In this document: piece by piece, positions 8,687 through 20,224 of the stretch | How positions within the stretch are numbered: the stretch's first letter is position 1 | Layout of the letters: each line of letters begins with the position of its first letter | Virus record (IMG/VR): IMGVR_UViG_3300008219_000113 | Location: 1-22,745 of that record | Direction: 5' to 3' (one strand) | Length of the DNA: 22,745 bases | Source: a virus | Program-made: the position numbers and the translations under genes | Notes under the pieces: model-generated | Told to the model about the DNA's origin: nothing | What the model saw: only the letters and a program-made list of their open reading frames with translations | The model's database searches: none

Positions 8687-8995
8687 CTATTTTACTACAG
8701 AATGCCCTCTGCCTTCAAGACATTTCTGCACCCTTTGTTTGTATTTTAATTCTCTTGCTGGCACTATGCCCAATGTGGCTATGTGGAAGTATTGTCCCCA
8801 ACCCCAATTGAGTGTGTCATACAATCTAAATGTGTTGTCCGAGGCGAATTGTTTGCAGTGCTGTATGTCATTGGTTATTTCAACTGCTTTGGCTTCTGGA
8901 AATGTGCCGGATCTACCTGCTGTGTCTATTTTTGGATTGTAAGCACAGTTGGTAAGCATTACCAATGTGCTGATGGTTAGTATCTTCTTTATCAT
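8687..8995 (-). CDS. Small predicted lipoprotein, 102 aa
   Basis: Predicted to be exported and lipid-anchored. The N-terminus MIKKILTISTLVMLTNC has a KK start, a hydrophobic core and a lipobox-like LTNC with Cys17 as the modified residue (Asn at -1 is unusual). The mature part contains IDTAGRSGTFPEAKAVEITNDIQHCKQFA and a hydrophobic, aromatic stretch (WGWGQYFHIATLGIVPA). I recall similar sequences from marine phages, where they are uncharacterised; superinfection exclusion or envelope modification is a plausible role, not shown here. The ATG at 8995 is chosen over one 27 bp upstream because AAGGAG lies 5 nt before it. It has its own promoter (9123-9150) and a structured leader, which suggests expression separate from its neighbours. 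Confidence 0.8.
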   Translation of the reverse strand: MIKKILTISTLVMLTNCAYNPKIDTAGRSGTFPEAKAVEITNDIQHCKQFASDNTFRLYDTLNWGWGQYFHIATLGIVPARELKYKQRVQKCLEGRGHSVVK

Positions 8996-9000
8996 GTTTT

Positions 9001-9116
9001 CTCCTTGCTTTGTTTTATACAAGGCACTGCTATGAATGTTGGCATACTTGACGGCAGTGCCCTGTAACTTTTTAATTGTAAAGGCGTGCTTAAAAAACTA
9101 AAATGCGCCTTGTACA
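9001..9116 (-). promoter_or_regulatory. Lipoprotein mRNA leader with mutually exclusive helices
   Basis: In the minus-strand leader, segment A (TACAAGGCG, 9106-9114) can pair with CGCCTT (9081-9086, 6 bp) or with segment B (GCCTTGTA, 9018-9025, 8 bp). Segment B in turn also matches the ribosome-site region (CCTTG 9020-9024 with CAAGG 9003-9007). A central hairpin, GGCACTGC/GCAGTGCC (9054-9061 and 9023-9030), shares three bases with B. The A-B pair would free the ribosome site; the alternative would mask it. This is switch-like, but no known riboswitch consensus is recognised. Confidence 0.5.
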
Positions 9117-9164: not shown

Positions 9165-9974
9165 CTATTTGAACAGTGTTAGCCTTGGATCCAACTGTTG
9201 TGTGTGTGCGTCTTGTGGTATGAAGAACAGATCCATGTCTCCTTTTTGGTGTACACCTTCGTGTTGTAATTGATTTCTATAACTGACAAAACTACCATCC
9301 AACCATCCTCTTTTTTTAGAACGACATCTATAACCTCTTGCTCTCAGCCAATCAATCATGTCTTCTGCCCAATAACCAAACTTGCGACACTGTGATGCCA
9401 CTATTTCCAATTGTATTATGGGTCGGTGTGCTTGTATGGTTTGTTCTGCACCCTGCAACACAAACCATTCATATCCTTCCACATCTATCTTGACGAAATC
9501 CACATCCTCTAAATGATAACTGTCCAGTGTGACACATTCAACTGTTTGTGTGTGTCTTTGCCTGGGCTTTGTTCTGTTGGGCCGGTTTTCCAAATGATTG
9601 TGTCCTCCATTTTTCCAATGTATAACCATCTGTGTGGTTTTGGCAGTTTCTGCCAGTGCTTGAGTGTGCAGTGTCGCATTTTTTACATCATTGTCTCGCA
9701 CTGTCAAATGCCACAATCGCTGTGCCAGTTGGGTTGGTTCCCAACATTCTACATAACTGAAACGTTCAGCATAATGAATGGCATTACAGGCATTGTTGCT
9801 ACCTATGTCCAAACATCGTCTAAATTTTTGAATGTGTTGTTGTGCAAACAACCAATTGGCTCTTTGGTATTGTCCCACACTCAATCTCTGTTTGTAAAGT
9901 TTGTCTCCTGCGTCAACCCAATAGGTGCGTCCATTACGGCTGTGTATGGCTTCAATTTCTGTGTGCGGCATCAT
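9165..9974 (-). CDS. FkbM-family SAM-dependent methyltransferase, 269 aa
   Basis: Rossmann-fold methyltransferase of the FkbM type, which usually O-methylates sugars or other small acceptors. Counting from the ATG at 9974, the SAM-binding motif CLDIGSNNA lies near residues 54-62, an acidic ECWEP end of strand 2 near 77-81, and the family signature KIDVEGYEW near 162-170. The length is usual for the family. No Shine-Dalgarno precedes any candidate start (TTG 9980, ATG 9974, ATG 9971). Instead TTTAAATATTG runs into the start, which suggests a leaderless or near-leaderless message. It is probably accessory cargo that alters host or virion glycans; the acceptor is unknown. It diverges from the plus-strand RNA region at 10003-10644. 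Confidence 0.85.
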   Translation of the reverse strand: MMPHTEIEAIHSRNGRTYWVDAGDKLYKQRLSVGQYQRANWLFAQQHIQKFRRCLDIGSNNACNAIHYAERFSYVECWEPTQLAQRLWHLTVRDNDVKNATLHTQALAETAKTTQMVIHWKNGGHNHLENRPNRTKPRQRHTQTVECVTLDSYHLEDVDFVKIDVEGYEWFVLQGAEQTIQAHRPIIQLEIVASQCRKFGYWAEDMIDWLRARGYRCRSKKRGWLDGSFVSYRNQLQHEGVHQKGDMDLFFIPQDAHTQQLDPRLTLFK

Positions 9975-10002
9975 CTGCAATATTTAAATTGTATGCTATC
10001 AC

Positions 10003-10644
10003 ACAGTGCTAGTTGTGGTGGCTAAACCCACTGTAACATACCGTTTAACAGCACACAGACGTCTCTACAAGCATCAAACCACATTTAGGTTGCTCTTTGT
10101 ACACATCCACATATATACTTGTGAAAATAGGCACAAATAGGCAAATAAAATTTCCCACAAGGCAACATAGCATCTCAACAAATTAAGAAAAGTTGAACAC
10201 ACCCTTTGATTGTGTAGGTCGGATGCAACCCAAACTGTTGGGCAAGGACAGTATAAAAAAATAGGCAGTTATGCTGATCGTTTTTGTGAAGACTATATGG
10301 CGATTGGATGTTGTACACTTGGACTTTAAGTCAATCATGGTTCACCTGATGTGTGCAATAATGGAAGTCAGACACTGGAAACAGTACGTAAGATATGCAA
10401 ACCCTTTACGTTGCAAAGTTGGATGTAGTGAACCTAACTAGGAAGATTTTACTAAAAGTCTTCTTGTGACTGAAGAGAAGAAAGACAATTGACGCAAGTC
10501 AATTGTGAGTGAGTGCAAACTCACTCCTTGTATACCCACACACACTCTACTAGTAAATACTGATGGAGACAGTTTTGTGAAATGGCCCAGTCTATTTGTT
10601 GCCATACATCCTAACGCAGTCATTTCATCCCCTTAACTGTCTCC
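10003..10644 (+). ncRNA. Candidate large structured noncoding RNA, about 640 nt
   Basis: No gene fits here, yet complementary segments follow one another almost without gaps. Junction 1: GCATC/GATGC (10170-10174, 10222-10226) encloses TCAAC/GTTGA (10175-10179, 10192-10196) and ACACA/TGTGT (10197-10201, 10211-10215). A CCCAA/TTGGG hairpin follows (10229-10242). Junction 2: TTGTACAC/GTGTGCAA (10311-10318, 10351-10358) encloses hairpins 10319-10334 and 10335-10349. Then come ACTG-GAAA-CAGT (10374-10385), a possible pseudoknot (10386-10415), a bulged hairpin (10417-10439), a 9-bp hairpin (10442-10463), two adjacent GCAA-capped hairpins (10485-10506, 10507-10526) and a nested helix (10565-10584 with 10621-10644). 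GNRA loops and G-U pairs fit the plus strand. The ends are approximate. The promoter is unclear; TTGCTC-18-TATACT ending near 10118 is weak. It could be a giant phage RNA such as GOLLD or ROOL, or new. Confidence 0.6.
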
Positions 10645-10708
10645 ACTTTATTTCCCACACACTTTACCAACATTTAAATAACTGTGACCTGCAGGGGTCA
10701 GTGAGCAT

Positions 10709-10978
10709 ATGGATAAAAACACATTCGAAGAGAGACTGCGAGAACTGGGCATTGAATTGCGTCCACCCTCCACTCATGGACCAAGGATAGGCATGCGTAG
10801 GGTCATATTCCCCCAGCACAAGGTTTGCCGCAGGACAGAAAAAACAACCACAGAGACACTGCAAAACAAGTGCAAGTGTGGCAAGAACTATTTCTATTCA
10901 CAGACACACATAATGATGCGTTGTGATGGTTGTAAAATAAGGCGATACATAGACTTTAAATTTCCAAAAAGGCGTTAA
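10709..10978 (+). CDS. Small zinc-ribbon protein, 89 aa
   Basis: The only plausible plus-strand protein gene. It is basic, with an N-terminal helix (MDKNTFEERLRELGIEL) and a C-terminal half carrying CKCGKNYFYSQ, then MMRCDGCKIRRYI, so CxC and CxxC pairs about 14 residues apart. This resembles a zinc ribbon for nucleic acid or protein binding. The isolated Cys40 lies outside. The start is uncertain but reasonable: AGGGG lies 11 nt before the ATG, and TTTAAATA (10673-10680) 28 nt before it. It follows the candidate structured RNA on the same strand by 64 bp and converges on the gene ending at 11041. It might bind that RNA or act as a transcription factor; both are guesses. Confidence 0.6.
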   Translation: MDKNTFEERLRELGIELRPPSTHGPRIGMRRVIFPQHKVCRRTEKTTTETLQNKCKCGKNYFYSQTHIMMRCDGCKIRRYIDFKFPKRR

Positions 10979-11016
10979 ATATTTGTGGTTTTATATCTTC
11001 TCGATTATGACCAGTG

Positions 11017-11049
11017 AAGCACTGATTCATGGATTGTGTGTCAGTGCTT
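11017..11049. terminator. Hairpin between convergent genes
   Basis: AAGCACTGA (11017-11025) and TCAGTGCTT (11041-11049) form a perfect 9-bp stem with a 15-nt loop. The right arm includes the stop codon of the minus-strand gene. No strong T-run follows on either strand (only TTT on plus), so it may be a weak bidirectional terminator or an RNA end-protecting hairpin between the convergent plus gene (ends 10978) and minus gene (ends 11041). Confidence 0.45.
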
Positions 11050-11586
11050 TGCCAAATAATCTTTTGGTGTTTGCCACTTGACGTGTGTGCCCAATATGTC
11101 CCTAGGTTTGTCGTGCACCACTGTTATTGGCACCAATTGTGCCAGCGTGTCAAACAATTTAAATTTTTCTCTGTTGTGTTTGGTAGGCGGAAACTTTCTC
11201 CAAGTGTATTGTTTGTCATACATTGAATTGTTTGTAATGGTCCAGTCACAGCCCAACAGATCTATTTCAGTCGCACCCAATTGCACAGCCAATACCAAAG
11301 CCATTGTGCCAGAGCAGTAACCATTTATGTTGCGTTGCTTTTCATAGCTCACTGTGGAAGTGAAAGTTTTCCAAGGGCCTTGTGTATACAATCTTCTAGT
11401 CCAGTACTCCACGTCTTTACTATAATTTTTGCCTATTGCACGTATGGTTGGTAGATCATAAGCACACACATGATGCACAGTTCTGTTGTTGGATATAAAA
11501 TTGCAACCTATCTCCAAAGGTTGTGGGGGAATATTGTAAAATTGTTCGACCGATGGACCGTTCCACCAAACTGTTGCTTTTGCCAT
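11041..11586 (-). CDS. DUF115/sialyltransferase-like Rossmann protein, 181 aa
   Basis: Resembles small phage relatives of the DUF115 (MptE-like) and GT42 sialyltransferase folds. It opens with VWWNGPSVEQF, then EIGCNFI and VCAYDLPTIRAIGK. The most telling stretch is the nucleotide-sugar-side motif SGTMALVLAVQLGATEIDLLGCDW (about residues 92-115, from codon position), matching the family pattern sG-mAl-lAi-lGa-eI-LlG-D. It is shorter than true glycosyltransferases, so it may be a core domain only. Likely cargo that modifies or masks surface glycans, in line with the FkbM gene. The ATG has no Shine-Dalgarno; ATTTAAATATTG stands 5 nt upstream as in the FkbM gene. Substrate unknown. Confidence 0.6.
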   Translation of the reverse strand: MAKATVWWNGPSVEQFYNIPPQPLEIGCNFISNNRTVHHVCAYDLPTIRAIGKNYSKDVEYWTRRLYTQGPWKTFTSTVSYEKQRNINGYCSGTMALVLAVQLGATEIDLLGCDWTITNNSMYDKQYTWRKFPPTKHNREKFKLFDTLAQLVPITVVHDKPRDILGTHVKWQTPKDYLAKH

Positions 11587-11618
11587 AACAATATTTAAAT
11601 GTTAAATGTAAAAGGTGA

Positions 11619-16348: not shown

Positions 16349-18327
16349 TAAGCAAATCTCCTACCCTGCTGTCTAAATGCTTGTTGGATAGTACCAATTA
16401 TAAGTCCTTTTCTTGACAATAACAATTCATCAAAACCTGCGGCATCCACTGCATTGATGTTGAAGTTAATATTTGTTTCACCCATTCTACTGCCCATTGT
16501 TTCATTGGATACTATCGTGCCTGCTGAGTTTGGTATGAACAACTCTGGTCCTCTTTCTCCAACCAAGAACGCACCACTGCCTCCTACTGCTCCACCACCT
16601 GCTCGAGCACCGCCAAATCCTATAGCACCACCATTGGCATATCCAACAGCACCGCCGTCGGCTCGACCGCCTAGCAACATTAAAATAAGTTTTAATCCTA
16701 TGGTCTTTTTAAGTTCACTGTTCAGTTTGGCCTGTGCATTGGCTTGGTTTAACACACCATTAACCATGTCAACGTTGAATACTTTTGCCAACCCCAAAAG
16801 TATTGGTCTAACAATCAATAATCTAATAATTCCACCAATAAGTTCTGTCATTATTGCCTTCCCAATTTCTCCTAGGGCCTCTTTCAATGATTTGGTACCC
16901 ATGATTACATCAGTCAACGCTGATTCTGTAGTCTTGGCAAATGCCGTCATCGAACCAATTATGGTGCCAATTACAATATTGTTCAAACTATATTCTTCCA
17001 ACAATTTATTCAATGCCTTGCCGTAGTCTGATACACTTACCTCGGTCTTCTTAACGGCTTGATTCATTTCTTTCTGTTTCATTATCATGGTCTTGGACAC
17101 GAACACACCTTCGGTTATTGCTTTGTTGTTTTCTTTGATGTCCTCGGTAACCGTTTGGTAACCTTCATGAAATAATCTTAAATTTTCTATACGTTTGTCG
17201 TCAAGTTCAATCTGTTCTTTCTCTTGAAATATTAGTTTACCTAGTGCCGAACCTACAGCAACTAAACCATCCACTACCATTTGTAAGAATCTAGATACTT
17301 TTCTTAATCCCTCAATTACTAGGTTTAATACCTTTCCGCCAAACTCTATAAACAGGTCTATAACTTTCTGTATGCCCGAATTAAGTTCATTGTTTAAAAA
17401 GAACTCTTGTACAGCATTGAACATATCTCTAATCACACCAACGGCTATAAAGAATCTTTTGATTACTTCGCCCATTGCTTTAACTAACAATCCTAGTGTG
17501 CTACCAATAAATGTGCCTAGTCCAGCCATTAGGTCTTCGTTGGCTATAACGAACTCTGTTACTTGATCTAATCCGTCTTTGAATGATGGACTAAATTCAT
17601 TTCCCATCCGGTCTGCAACATTCTTAAGTGCGATGCCTAAGTTACTAAATTTTGTTGATGTGTTCTGTAGTAGGTTTGCTGTGGCATCACCATAACGTTC
17701 TTCAATAGTTTCTGATAGTGTTCGTAATATTAATTCTGTGTTGCCTGTTTCTTTACTAAATTTACCTAATTCATTTCTCGTTACACCTAATTTTTCTTTT
17801 AGGATATCATACACCGGAAGACCTCTGTCTTGTAATTTGTCAAACTCCATTAGTTCAACCTGACCCGATGCCAATGACCTTGTGTACACATCTGTTAGTG
17901 CGCCTAACGTACCAACCTGATCTGTAGTTACAGCCGCCGCATTAGAGAATGTTGTTAATAATTTTGCTGTTGGCTCTATACCAGATGTTGATAGTTTAAT
18001 GTATGTTGTTGTAAGGTCTTCAACGCCAAACTGTGTCTTTGTAGCAAATTTACTAATTTTATCAAATGCCGCCGCACCACCTTGTACTGATCCTTCAACT
18101 GTGCTTAAGGTTGTCCTTAGGTCTTCGAATCTAGCATTGGTAGTTACTATGTCTTTGATAACCTTACCTGTAACAAGCACAGCAAGTAATGGTCCCAATG
18201 TCCTCAATGCCGCACCGGCGCCGAATGCAGATGTCTTTATGCCATTAAGGCCAGCGGCAACTCCACCCAAAGCCGCAGTGTTCTTCGCGACTACGTCTAT
18301 TACTAATTTTTGTTTCGCATCGGCCAT
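16348..18327 (-). CDS. Tail tape measure protein, 659 aa
   Basis: Sets tail length and is likely ejected during infection. The N-terminal third is alpha-helical with the TP901-type core pattern (ARFEDLRTTLSTVEGSVQGGAAAFDKISKFATKTQFGVEDLTTTYIKL). Hydrophobic stretches follow (for example TFIGSTLGLLVKAMGEVIKRFFIAVGVI and the LIGGIIRLLIVRPILLGLAKVF region). Residues 553-606 are Gly-rich (GGAVGYANGGAIGFGG) and lead to LVGERGPELFIPNSAGTIVSN, a classic C-terminal segment of lambda H-like tape measures. The length predicts a rather short tail of roughly 100 nm by the usual 0.15 nm per residue rule. AAGGAG lies upstream inside the gpT-like frame, and the ATG overlaps that frame's TAA. Confidence 0.92.
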   Translation of the reverse strand: MADAKQKLVIDVVAKNTAALGGVAAGLNGIKTSAFGAGAALRTLGPLLAVLVTGKVIKDIVTTNARFEDLRTTLSTVEGSVQGGAAAFDKISKFATKTQFGVEDLTTTYIKLSTSGIEPTAKLLTTFSNAAAVTTDQVGTLGALTDVYTRSLASGQVELMEFDKLQDRGLPVYDILKEKLGVTRNELGKFSKETGNTELILRTLSETIEERYGDATANLLQNTSTKFSNLGIALKNVADRMGNEFSPSFKDGLDQVTEFVIANEDLMAGLGTFIGSTLGLLVKAMGEVIKRFFIAVGVIRDMFNAVQEFFLNNELNSGIQKVIDLFIEFGGKVLNLVIEGLRKVSRFLQMVVDGLVAVGSALGKLIFQEKEQIELDDKRIENLRLFHEGYQTVTEDIKENNKAITEGVFVSKTMIMKQKEMNQAVKKTEVSVSDYGKALNKLLEEYSLNNIVIGTIIGSMTAFAKTTESALTDVIMGTKSLKEALGEIGKAIMTELIGGIIRLLIVRPILLGLAKVFNVDMVNGVLNQANAQAKLNSELKKTIGLKLILMLLGGRADGGAVGYANGGAIGFGGARAGGGAVGGSGAFLVGERGPELFIPNSAGTIVSNETMGSRMGETNINFNINAVDAAGFDELLLSRKGLIIGTIQQAFRQQGRRFA

Positions 18328-18488
18328 TATCTACGTCTCCTTGTTGGCATAGGCGGCCGTTGGCTACCCATGGTTGTTTTACTTTCTTTGTGTTCGAACA
18401 AAAAATACCCGGACCACAGTTCTAGTTCCAATGTTGACATCTGCAATATCTCTTCAATAGACTTTTTGAGTCTATCGGCGAGTAACAT
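18327..18488 (-). CDS. gpT-like tail assembly protein, likely made by -1 frameshift, 53 aa from first ATG
   Basis: Short frame between the tail chaperone and tape measure genes. From the ATG at 18488 it reads MLLADRLKKSIEEILQMSTL, then ELWSGYFLFEHKESK and a basic end PTRRRR. The W-x-x-Y-F core is typical of gpT/DUF4035-like tail proteins. The frame is open upstream to 18560, in the -1 frame relative to the 114-aa gene. The ATG has no ribosome site. A slip at A-AAG (18521-18524), where lysyl-tRNA can re-pair with AAA, would give a fusion of about 177 residues, matching the lambda G/GT scheme. The frame relation is seen directly; the slip itself is inferred. Confidence 0.75.
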   Translation of the reverse strand: MLLADRLKKSIEEILQMSTLELELWSGYFLFEHKESKTTMGSQRPPMPTRRRR

Positions 18489-18514
18489 TACAAACCGGAG
18501 TTCAACATTGGATT

Positions 18515-18859
18515 TTATTCCTTTGCGATTGTTTCCTGATCTGCGGAAAGTTTCGCATTGTTAATTGCTGTACCAACTTTCACCACAACAAGTGGATCCG
18601 CTTCGTGCATCAATTTAATCCTGTCTGCGTCATGGAATAATCGTTTGCCATTTTTGTCTCTGGCTTTAACAATTATGCTCTCAACAACTGCTTCAATAGT
18701 TTTCCCTGCGGCCTGCAGTTCCATTACTTTGGCTTCGTCTTTAAGCGGATATGTGGTCCTGCAATATATGTCAGTGTCCCATTCCTCCACGTGTATTTTC
18801 TTCATATCACCACCAATACTTGATTGATAGTGTTTTCCGATTTTGTCCATTATACTCAT
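18515..18859 (-). CDS. Tail assembly chaperone (gpG-like), 114 aa
   Basis: Chaperone that would coat the tape measure protein during tail assembly. The sequence (MSIMDKIGKHYQSSIGG, then KKIHVEEWDTDIYCRTTYPLKDEAKVMELQAAGKTIEAVVE, then ARDKNGKRLFHDADRIKLMHEADPLVVVKV) closely follows a common phage tail assembly chaperone family. The start is supported by GAGGAG 7 nt upstream. The C-terminus is followed by the -1-frame gpT-like extension, so two products are expected: the short form and a low-abundance frameshifted form. Directly upstream of the tape measure, the conserved position for this pair. Confidence 0.85.
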   Translation of the reverse strand: MSIMDKIGKHYQSSIGGDMKKIHVEEWDTDIYCRTTYPLKDEAKVMELQAAGKTIEAVVESIIVKARDKNGKRLFHDADRIKLMHEADPLVVVKVGTAINNAKLSADQETIAKE

Positions 18860-18871
18860 CTTATATCTCCT

Positions 18872-19147
18872 CTATTTTCCTATTTTACTTAATGTTGGTC
18901 CAACGATACCACGTGGGGCCTGTCCACTCCTGCCATGTTCAAGTGCGTGTCCGTATGACTGTGGATTGCTAATGGTACGTTTTGTACCACTACCACTCAT
19001 ACGCCAACTTTTTTTGAACAGGCCTGAACGCACCGGTGATCTACGTTTGACCTCTTTAAGTACCTCGTTACTGGTCTTCTGAATTTGGCTTTCAACGCCT
19101 TTTGTCAGAGCCTTTGTAAGCAATAATGACTTAAAGATTACCTTCAT
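18872..19147 (-). CDS. HK97 gp10-like head-tail/tail completion protein, 91 aa
   Basis: Resembles the HK97 gp10 family of head-tail joining or tail-completion proteins. Visible signature: basic helix SNEVLKEVKRRSPVRSGLFKKSWRM, then ISNPQSYGHALEHGRSGQAPRGIVGPTL. The SPVRSG-L-SW and Y-EHGRSGQAP-G-V-PT elements are the family hallmark. It is shorter than many members. In most phages this gene precedes the tail tube; here it follows it, between the tube and the chaperones, which is unusual but seen in some marine phages as far as I recall. No Shine-Dalgarno is clear, and the start is 4 bp after the tube stop, so translation is coupled. Confidence 0.75.
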   Translation of the reverse strand: MKVIFKSLLLTKALTKGVESQIQKTSNEVLKEVKRRSPVRSGLFKKSWRMSGSGTKRTISNPQSYGHALEHGRSGQAPRGIVGPTLSKIGK

Positions 19148-19151
19148 GTTA

Positions 19152-19568
19152 TTAAAGGTCTGCTTTGGTCAGTGCTCCGCTACCTTGGAAACTGACTTCT
19201 GCTGTTACTGCCCCCGCATTATCCGCCGAAATTTCGTGGCTGGTAATGATTACTTCTCCAGATAATTTAACACCTGTTGTTCTGCCTGATGGAAACAGTT
19301 CTACTGATGCCGCCGCGGCTCCTGGTGCTGAAAACAATGCAGATTGTGCCGCATCATCGTCTCTGAAGTACAAACTCATCGAACCAGTAAAGTTTGTTAA
19401 TCCTGGTAGATAAGTTCTTGAAGTTGATCCCATCGCTGAAGTCTCAATCGCATCACCTGTTTGTGATACAGAAAAAGATATAATGGAAGCAACTGGTGTT
19501 ACAGAACCGCCCACGTCAAAATGTGCGACTCCTTGTGTTCCTGAATAGACTGCTGTGTTTGTAGCCAT
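19152..19568 (-). CDS. Major tail tube protein, 138 aa
   Basis: Probable tube subunit stacked as hexamer rings around the tape measure. The sequence is beta-rich without Cys and has the tail tube pattern: N-terminal VYSGTQGVAHFDVGG, then SFSVSQTGDAIETSAMGSTSRTYLPGLTNFTGSMSLYF, acidic DDDAAQSALF, and an ISADNAGAVTAEVSFQGSGAL end. The ETSAMGS-R-YLPGL-FTGS motif is common in gpV-like and related tube proteins. Length is normal. It lies three genes upstream of the tape measure and directly after a small 71-aa gene. High expression would be expected for this structural subunit, and its codons resemble those of its neighbours. Confidence 0.82.
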   Translation of the reverse strand: MATNTAVYSGTQGVAHFDVGGSVTPVASIISFSVSQTGDAIETSAMGSTSRTYLPGLTNFTGSMSLYFRDDDAAQSALFSAPGAAAASVELFPSGRTTGVKLSGEVIITSHEISADNAGAVTAEVSFQGSGALTKADL

Positions 19569-19571
19569 TTT

Positions 19572-19787
19572 CTATTCCTCCTCTTTGTTGTTGTTAATGA
19601 CTTCAGCGTCTGCCTTCAATATTCGCATACGCCTTTGTCTTGGTTTTGGTTTAGTTTGGATTTCTTCCTGTGGCTTCTCAGTCACAGCAGGTTTTTTAAA
19701 TTTCCAGCCTGATCTCAAATGGTCTTGAACCTGTGGGTTCTCGACTATTTTTGAATTCCCTTCTTTATCATACATTTGTATTGACAT
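19572..19787 (-). CDS. Small hypothetical tail-region protein, 71 aa
   Basis: Function not recognised. The N-terminal ~30 residues (MSIQMYDKEGNSKIVENPQVQDHLRSGWKF) form a compact pattern with the DHLRSGWKF motif seen in small proteins next to tail terminator genes. The rest is Pro/Lys/Arg rich and ends in an acidic run (NNNKEEE), so it is probably disordered. It starts on the stop of the tail terminator gene and ends 4 bp before the tail tube, so it belongs to the tail operon. It may bind a virion protein by its short folded part. Confidence 0.7.
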   Translation of the reverse strand: MSIQMYDKEGNSKIVENPQVQDHLRSGWKFKKPAVTEKPQEEIQTKPKPRQRRMRILKADAEVINNNKEEE

Positions 19788-20224
19788 TATGCATTACCTC
19801 TCTTGTAAACATAAGTCACTGAAAGTGTTGCATTGAACTGCCCTAGTGGTTGTTGTCTTTCAACGACTTCTATGTTGTTAATTGATGATTGTACGTAGTG
19901 TGTGGCAGTATTGTCAACAGTTATATTTCTATCTCTGCTTAACTCCAATGTTTCTTCTATTTTTTCAATTAGATTGTTTCTTGCTGTGTCCAGTTCACTG
20001 CCTCTGACAAAACATCGTAGTTCTATTTCAAGTGTGCCTTGTCTTTCTGACATACTGATGTCTTCTCTTTCCTCATTGCCACTGACAACAAGTATTGCTG
20101 GAAACTGTGTGATTGCTAGTTTTTCAAAATCAAAGAATTCTCTGCTAACCAAGACTGCTCCTGGTTTAGACATATTCTTTAATTGTTCAACGATATCTAT
20201 CGCTATGTTTTCTCTTGCACTCAT
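19787..20224 (-). CDS. Tail terminator protein (gpU-like), 145 aa
   Basis: Likely caps the tail tube and joins it to the head. Pattern: N-terminal helix NIAIDIVEQLKNMSKPGAVLVSREFFDFEKLAITQFPAILVVSGNE, a middle strand RQGTLEIELRCFVRGSELDTARNNLIEKIEETLELSRDRNI, and the end INNIEVVERQQPLGQFNATLSVTYVYKRG. The helix-strand layout, the NLIEKIEETL segment, and the terminal P-G-F-x-V-Y strand agree with gpU/tail completion families. It is placed between the connector and the tube genes as expected. The gap to the upstream gene is 4 bp. The assignment is by pattern and position. Confidence 0.7.
   Translation of the reverse strand: MSARENIAIDIVEQLKNMSKPGAVLVSREFFDFEKLAITQFPAILVVSGNEEREDISMSERQGTLEIELRCFVRGSELDTARNNLIEKIEETLELSRDRNITVDNTATHYVQSSINNIEVVERQQPLGQFNATLSVTYVYKRGNA

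Follow-up and report, generated by a model that had tools for sequence, protein, structure and literature searches.

Phage noncoding RNAs as large as the one described here are a rare but known kind, of which GOLLD and ROOL are the best-described examples. A ROOL example measures 659 nt; GOLLD is also known from a marine sample, has many members longer than 800 nt and is universally conserved in its 3' region, and both RNAs build RNA-only cages (PMC12286853). Phage RNA of another sort is represented by HK022 put, a nascent-RNA element acting in cis on early phage transcription (PMC9378689).

The sequence studied is an IMG/VR virus record, and the window, meaning the whole stretch analysed, covers 22.7 kb of an incomplete genome. 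Its capsid protein is 46-51% identical to those of the Pelagibacter phages HTVC112P, 026P, 202P and 111P and 43% identical to that of phage DSL-LC06; the phage is siphovirus-like and known from metagenomes only. Every head and tail gene of the window lies on the minus strand. Between genes, the original prediction had placed a large, structured plus-strand RNA at 10003-10644, and this was borne out: helices were kept in relatives, compensatory changes affected both sides of pairs, and paired columns were less variable. The interval itself had to be corrected to about 10126-10645, since the first ~120 nt (10003-10125) are upstream DNA. The RNA thus delimited is about 520 nt long, with ends predicted from an island conserved in the related records L107 and L230 and from covariation. 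It resembles ROOL in being borne by phage or prophage, encoding no protein, having a similar size and many helices and lacking an assigned function, but it differs in having no Rfam match, no tRNA genes in the window and, as far as resolved, another set of helices. With GOLLD it shares large size and carriage by phage; however, it has neither an Rfam match nor tRNA genes in the window, and its most conserved part is central, whereas that of GOLLD is the 3' region. GOLLD and ROOL are of the same kind without sharing a sequence family with the present RNA, for which assembly into particles is not implied.

No Rfam family matched at gathering scores, and relaxed thresholds gave weak matches far below the curated cut-offs. 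The size range of GOLLD and ROOL had been pointed out earlier without a match to either; in agreement with this, the covariance models for GOLLD, ROOL and OLE gave no match in the window, L107 or L230, either at gathering score or when the limit was relaxed to E<=5. ARAGORN and Rfam searches matched no tmRNA, tRNA, group I or II intron or riboswitch. GOLLD and ROOL often lie near tRNA genes, a position that is common, not obligatory; ARAGORN found no tRNA in the 22.7-kb window of this incomplete genome. The alignment of IMES-5 (RF02995) to P11-P13 of L230 (19.7 bits, E 0.14-0.36, gathering score 96.1) was attributed to chance and was not seen in the window or L107. A preQ1-like likeness of P2 in L230 (15 bits against a 39-bit cut-off) and matches to FasX and ES173, far below threshold, were also rejected.

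The RNA core was present in seven other IMG/VR records. Six of them (L014, L021, L026, L028, L030 and L107) were retrieved with an exact core pattern and the seventh, L230, with the P1b pattern; L026 is identical to the window and adds no independent sequence, leaving seven distinct sequences, drawn from separate contigs, in three divergent lineages. L230 is the more divergent relative (nhmmer E 8e-108). When the 89-aa protein encoded to the right of the RNA was used for scanning, L002-L005 and L007 were recovered, carrying the whole region at 95-97% identity (100% for L007), and a tail-protein scan recovered L100, which belongs to the contig of L107, is 80% identical over window 10113-10716 and lacks the FkbM gene found to the left. 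No homologue appeared in BLAST searches of the region against phage records and plasmids or in exact-pattern searches of bacterial genomes, and the core was absent from the other records searched, including HTVC026P and DSL-LC06. L006 shares the conserved DNA upstream and the hairpin at the 3' end, but has two protein ORFs of 221 and 65 aa, neither with a clear family, where the core would be; this record also has the 89-aa gene, without the RNA core upstream of it.

Compared with L107, the core at 10340-10530 was 92% identical and 10126-10530 was 83% identical, whereas identity fell to 51% over 10060-10159, 56% over 10531-10660 and 58% for the 89-aa gene. Identity is also high elsewhere in the phage (18.3-19.9 kb, mostly above 91% and up to 100%), but sharp edges distinguish the RNA island. 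That other stretch, 18300-19900, is at 91-100% identity closer to L107 than most of the shared genome, perhaps as a result of recent recombination. The segment had been described as free of plausible genes, and it holds one medium plus-strand ORF, 10271-10441, which is partly open in L107. By comparison with L107 this ORF is not a gene, because substitutions were spread 3/3/3 over the codon positions and indels shift the frame.

Upstream of the RNA, a conserved DNA element at 10001-10105 (plus strand) was 87% identical to L006 6690-6586, where it precedes the 221-aa gene; it is probably an operator or other control DNA lying outside the RNA. A sigma-70-like promoter, TTGCTC-N18-TATACT, is predicted on the plus strand at 10090-10119, and transcription would be expected to start near 10126. 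The promoter position is shared: L107 has TTGACA-N18-TATACT, L230 has TTGACA followed by TATAAA, and L006 has TTGCTC-N18-TATACT. The automatic scan left the window promoter out of its list because the -35 element is weak; those of L107 and L230 are good ones. Both this promoter and the ends of the RNA are predictions from sequence. AGGCA has three copies close to the RNA 5' end (10130-10165), and L107 and L230 retain them with spacers that vary.

All helices described below are on the plus strand. The 5' domain (10170-10226) contains P1 (10170-10174/10222-10226) and P1b (10197-10201/10211-10215), both invariant in the seven sequences and so beyond the reach of a covariation test. A three-way junction had been drawn here; its two stems were retained, while the third arm (10176-10179/10192-10195) was broken in L230 and was dropped. 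Hairpin P2 (10234-10252) has an invariant stem and a variable loop. The 9-bp hairpin P3 (10274-10307) pairs in all seven sequences, with the pair types C-G/U-A/U-G and G-U/A-U/G-C. P4 (10311-10318/10351-10358) is a possible pseudoknot helix, in which U-G became C-G in L005 and one pair was broken in L230. The helices of a second proposed three-way junction were present, but they are better drawn as a four-way junction (10339-10434) closed by P6 (10339-10345/10428-10434, U-A to U-G in L100) and enclosing P7 (10346-10371, two G-U changes), P8 (10374-10385) and P9 (10386-10411, A-U to G-C in L230). Six sequences cap P8 with a GAAA or GAGA loop, and L230 has a longer, rebuilt hairpin (UUGUC/GACAA).

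Farther 3', the hairpin first placed at 10442-10463 corresponds to P11 (10439-10466, 12 bp) and gained strength from L230, where three outer pairs had changed on both sides and remained fully compensatory. P12 (10485-10506, 9 bp, two fully compensatory pairs in L230) and P13 (10507-10526, 8 bp, U-A to U-G in L230) are adjacent twin hairpins. GNRA caps had been assigned to them; this did not hold in the relatives, where the loops follow GNNA (GCAA, GUUA or GCCA in P13). The combinations in P12/P13 were GCAA/GCAA, GUUA/GUUA, GUCA/GCCA and GUUA/GCCA, and in L004 and L005 both loops were altered together. Such paired changes may mean that a single partner reads both hairpins. Two other pairings were discarded: the helix AGUUGG/CUAACU (10417-10422/10434-10439), broken in L230, and 10366-10370/10467-10471, which has one compensatory pair in L100 and is not kept in L230. 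The long-range fold that RNAalifold returned for the whole alignment contained few compensatory pairs and was replaced by the helices kept in L230.

Across the seven sequences, 99.3% of cells in the named P1-P9 structure were standard pairs, compared with 25-39% when the partner was slid by 1-3 columns; this control is biased towards any structure that was drawn from a sequence in the set, and weight was therefore placed on changes. Rather than losing the pairing, homologues mostly kept the helices, and both-sided changes were found at one pair in P3, one in P9, two in P12, three in P11 (hand-aligned) and five in P14. These counts are small because there are only three divergent lineages. Shuffled alignments matched the both-sided pair count in 22 of 500 runs for the core, 20 of 500 for P12/P13 and 7 of 500 for P14. 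Variable columns made up 21/152 (14%) of paired and 54/173 (31%) of unpaired positions (Fisher p 2e-4). Pair types in the helices included 21 G-U and 2 A-C, one of the latter due to a shifted alignment, showing that the RNA strand is the plus strand, as G-U pairs in the original drawing had implied. The comparison of folding energy with shuffled sequence succeeded in part. For the whole region the plus strand reached a z of -1.77, with 0/20 shuffles as good, against -0.67 for the minus strand, and 150-nt plus-strand windows reached -4.6 at 10380-10529 and -4.3 at 10500-10649; however, the 5' half was no more stable than shuffles, so that folding energy backs the 3' half only. Taken from these sequence comparisons, the fold and the plus strand are well supported.

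The 3' end of the RNA is formed by P14 (10564-10645, plus strand), which consists of P14a, P14b and an apical loop with the invariant TTGTTGCCATA. Its five pairs changed on both sides gave a covariation score of 0.295, compared with 0.176 for shuffled alignments, and neither this score nor the number of cells with a both-sided change was reached in 500 shuffles. P14 stands after the protein genes in L006 and after a 95-aa ORF in L230, and the unit ends there in every relative. We take P14 to be a shared 3'-end element, because in L006 it is the terminus of a protein-coding unit as well. No second copy was found in the relatives searched, HTVC026P or DSL-LC06, and a pairing of the P14 loop with late-gene start codons was dropped as not conserved. 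Complementarity between the P14 loop (10590-10603) and the 5' arm 10130-10142 on the same strand suggests a long-range helix, P15. Its duplex energy was compared with shuffles and with the contig background, and the four sequences combined gave p ~4e-4 against the latter, a post hoc value, as the complementarity was spotted by inspection before the test. The pairing in L107 is different but equally good, and those in L230 and L006 are weaker.

The RNA region is flanked on the left by an FkbM methyltransferase gene (9165-9980, minus strand) and on the right by the 89-aa ORF (10709-10978, plus strand). A leftward phage promoter with a perfect sigma-70 consensus (TTGACA-N16-TATAAT) lies at 9150-9123 on the minus strand, and a leader with two hairpins separates it from the ORF at 8687-9022. 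The two divergent promoters are separated by the FkbM gene, an insert that is absent at that place in L006, L107 and L230; in L014, a second FkbM-like gene (L014 10407-11339) adjoins it. L021 441-2350 is 94% identical to window 9179-11055 over the FkbM gene, the RNA and the 89-aa gene, whereas the flanking genes are 65-80% identical, which suggests that this block was exchanged by recombination. The motif TTTAAATA occurs at 9981-9990, 10671-10680 and 11592-11601, directly upstream of the FkbM, 89-aa and 182-aa accessory genes, and may be a late promoter; the window holds no more copies of it than chance would give.

A small gene always lies downstream of the RNA on the same strand, as it would if the RNA were a 5' untranslated leader acting in cis on that gene, as a put-like antiterminator or attenuator. 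In L230 the 95-aa ORF adjoins the core directly, standing between it and P14, so that a shared transcript is possible. The twin hairpins also recall the nascent-RNA element HK022 put (PMC9378689), itself a phage RNA with adjacent hairpins, transcribed from an early-region phage promoter. Put-type antitermination acts in cis before a long early operon; here one plus-strand gene, of 89 aa, follows the RNA, and the genes beyond it turn to the minus strand, so that antitermination would have no long operon to act on. Moreover, P14 intervenes between core and gene in the window and L107, and 520 nt with such conservation exceed a put site. We consider a cis leader rather unlikely, because the downstream gene varies (no clear homology was found between the 89-aa gene and the 95-aa ORF of L230) and because L006 has the 89-aa gene without the RNA.

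A role for the segment at the DNA level, be it as an origin, in packaging, or as a palindromic site of recombination or protein binding, would agree with the near-palindromic P12-P14 and with the exchange of the block between phages in L021. Palindromes in DNA should show no preference for G-U over A-C, yet the ratio of 21 to 2 indicates that plus-strand RNA pairing was kept, and the upstream promoter was retained as well; a DNA element is thus highly improbable. Descent from L006-type genes, leaving a decayed or short coding unit, is brought to mind by the 221-aa and 65-aa genes that the same 5' element and P14 enclose there and by the partly open ORF in L107. A remnant would not be conserved, but the core is better conserved than the DNA on either side, and the substitution pattern and frame-breaking indels largely refute a long ORF. 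The ORF test leaves room for a very short peptide; as a whole, a coding remnant is barely credible.

The RNA extends over hundreds of nucleotides, is conserved and noncoding, and keeps its plus-strand pairing through compensatory change, as large structured phage noncoding RNAs do. On the present sequences it is best read as a new family of this kind. With a probability of about 0.78, we interpret 10126-10645 as a stand-alone structured noncoding RNA made from the promoter at 10090-10119, folded as P1-P14 and serving as a trans-acting scaffold. Rightward transcription would diverge from the leftward promoter, with the FkbM gene inserted between them, and the transcript would fold into the 5' domain, P2, P3, the four-way junction P6-P9, P11, the GNNA twins and P14, whose loop would probably pair back to the RNA 5' end. 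During infection, the RNA would most likely be a folded, trans-acting scaffold that binds a host or phage protein or assembles with its own copies through invariant unpaired stretches and the GNNA loops. Trans action is favoured because the downstream gene is not constant and L006 has protein genes in place of the RNA, and we give early expression together with trans action about an even chance. A bolder proposal, conceivable but doubtful, is an ornate phage RNA that founds its own class, with its 5' end locked to the P14 loop, forming an RNA-only particle or inactivating a host factor or defence, while the promoter and 3' element would serve RNA or protein cargo alike in related phages.

Few known phage RNAs reach this size, and even the best-described, GOLLD and ROOL, have no settled role. 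Here, an RNA without detectable kinship to either occupies a slot that is held by protein genes in L006. This swap offers a natural comparison for the role of such RNAs, while chemical probing and structural studies could start directly from the conserved core.
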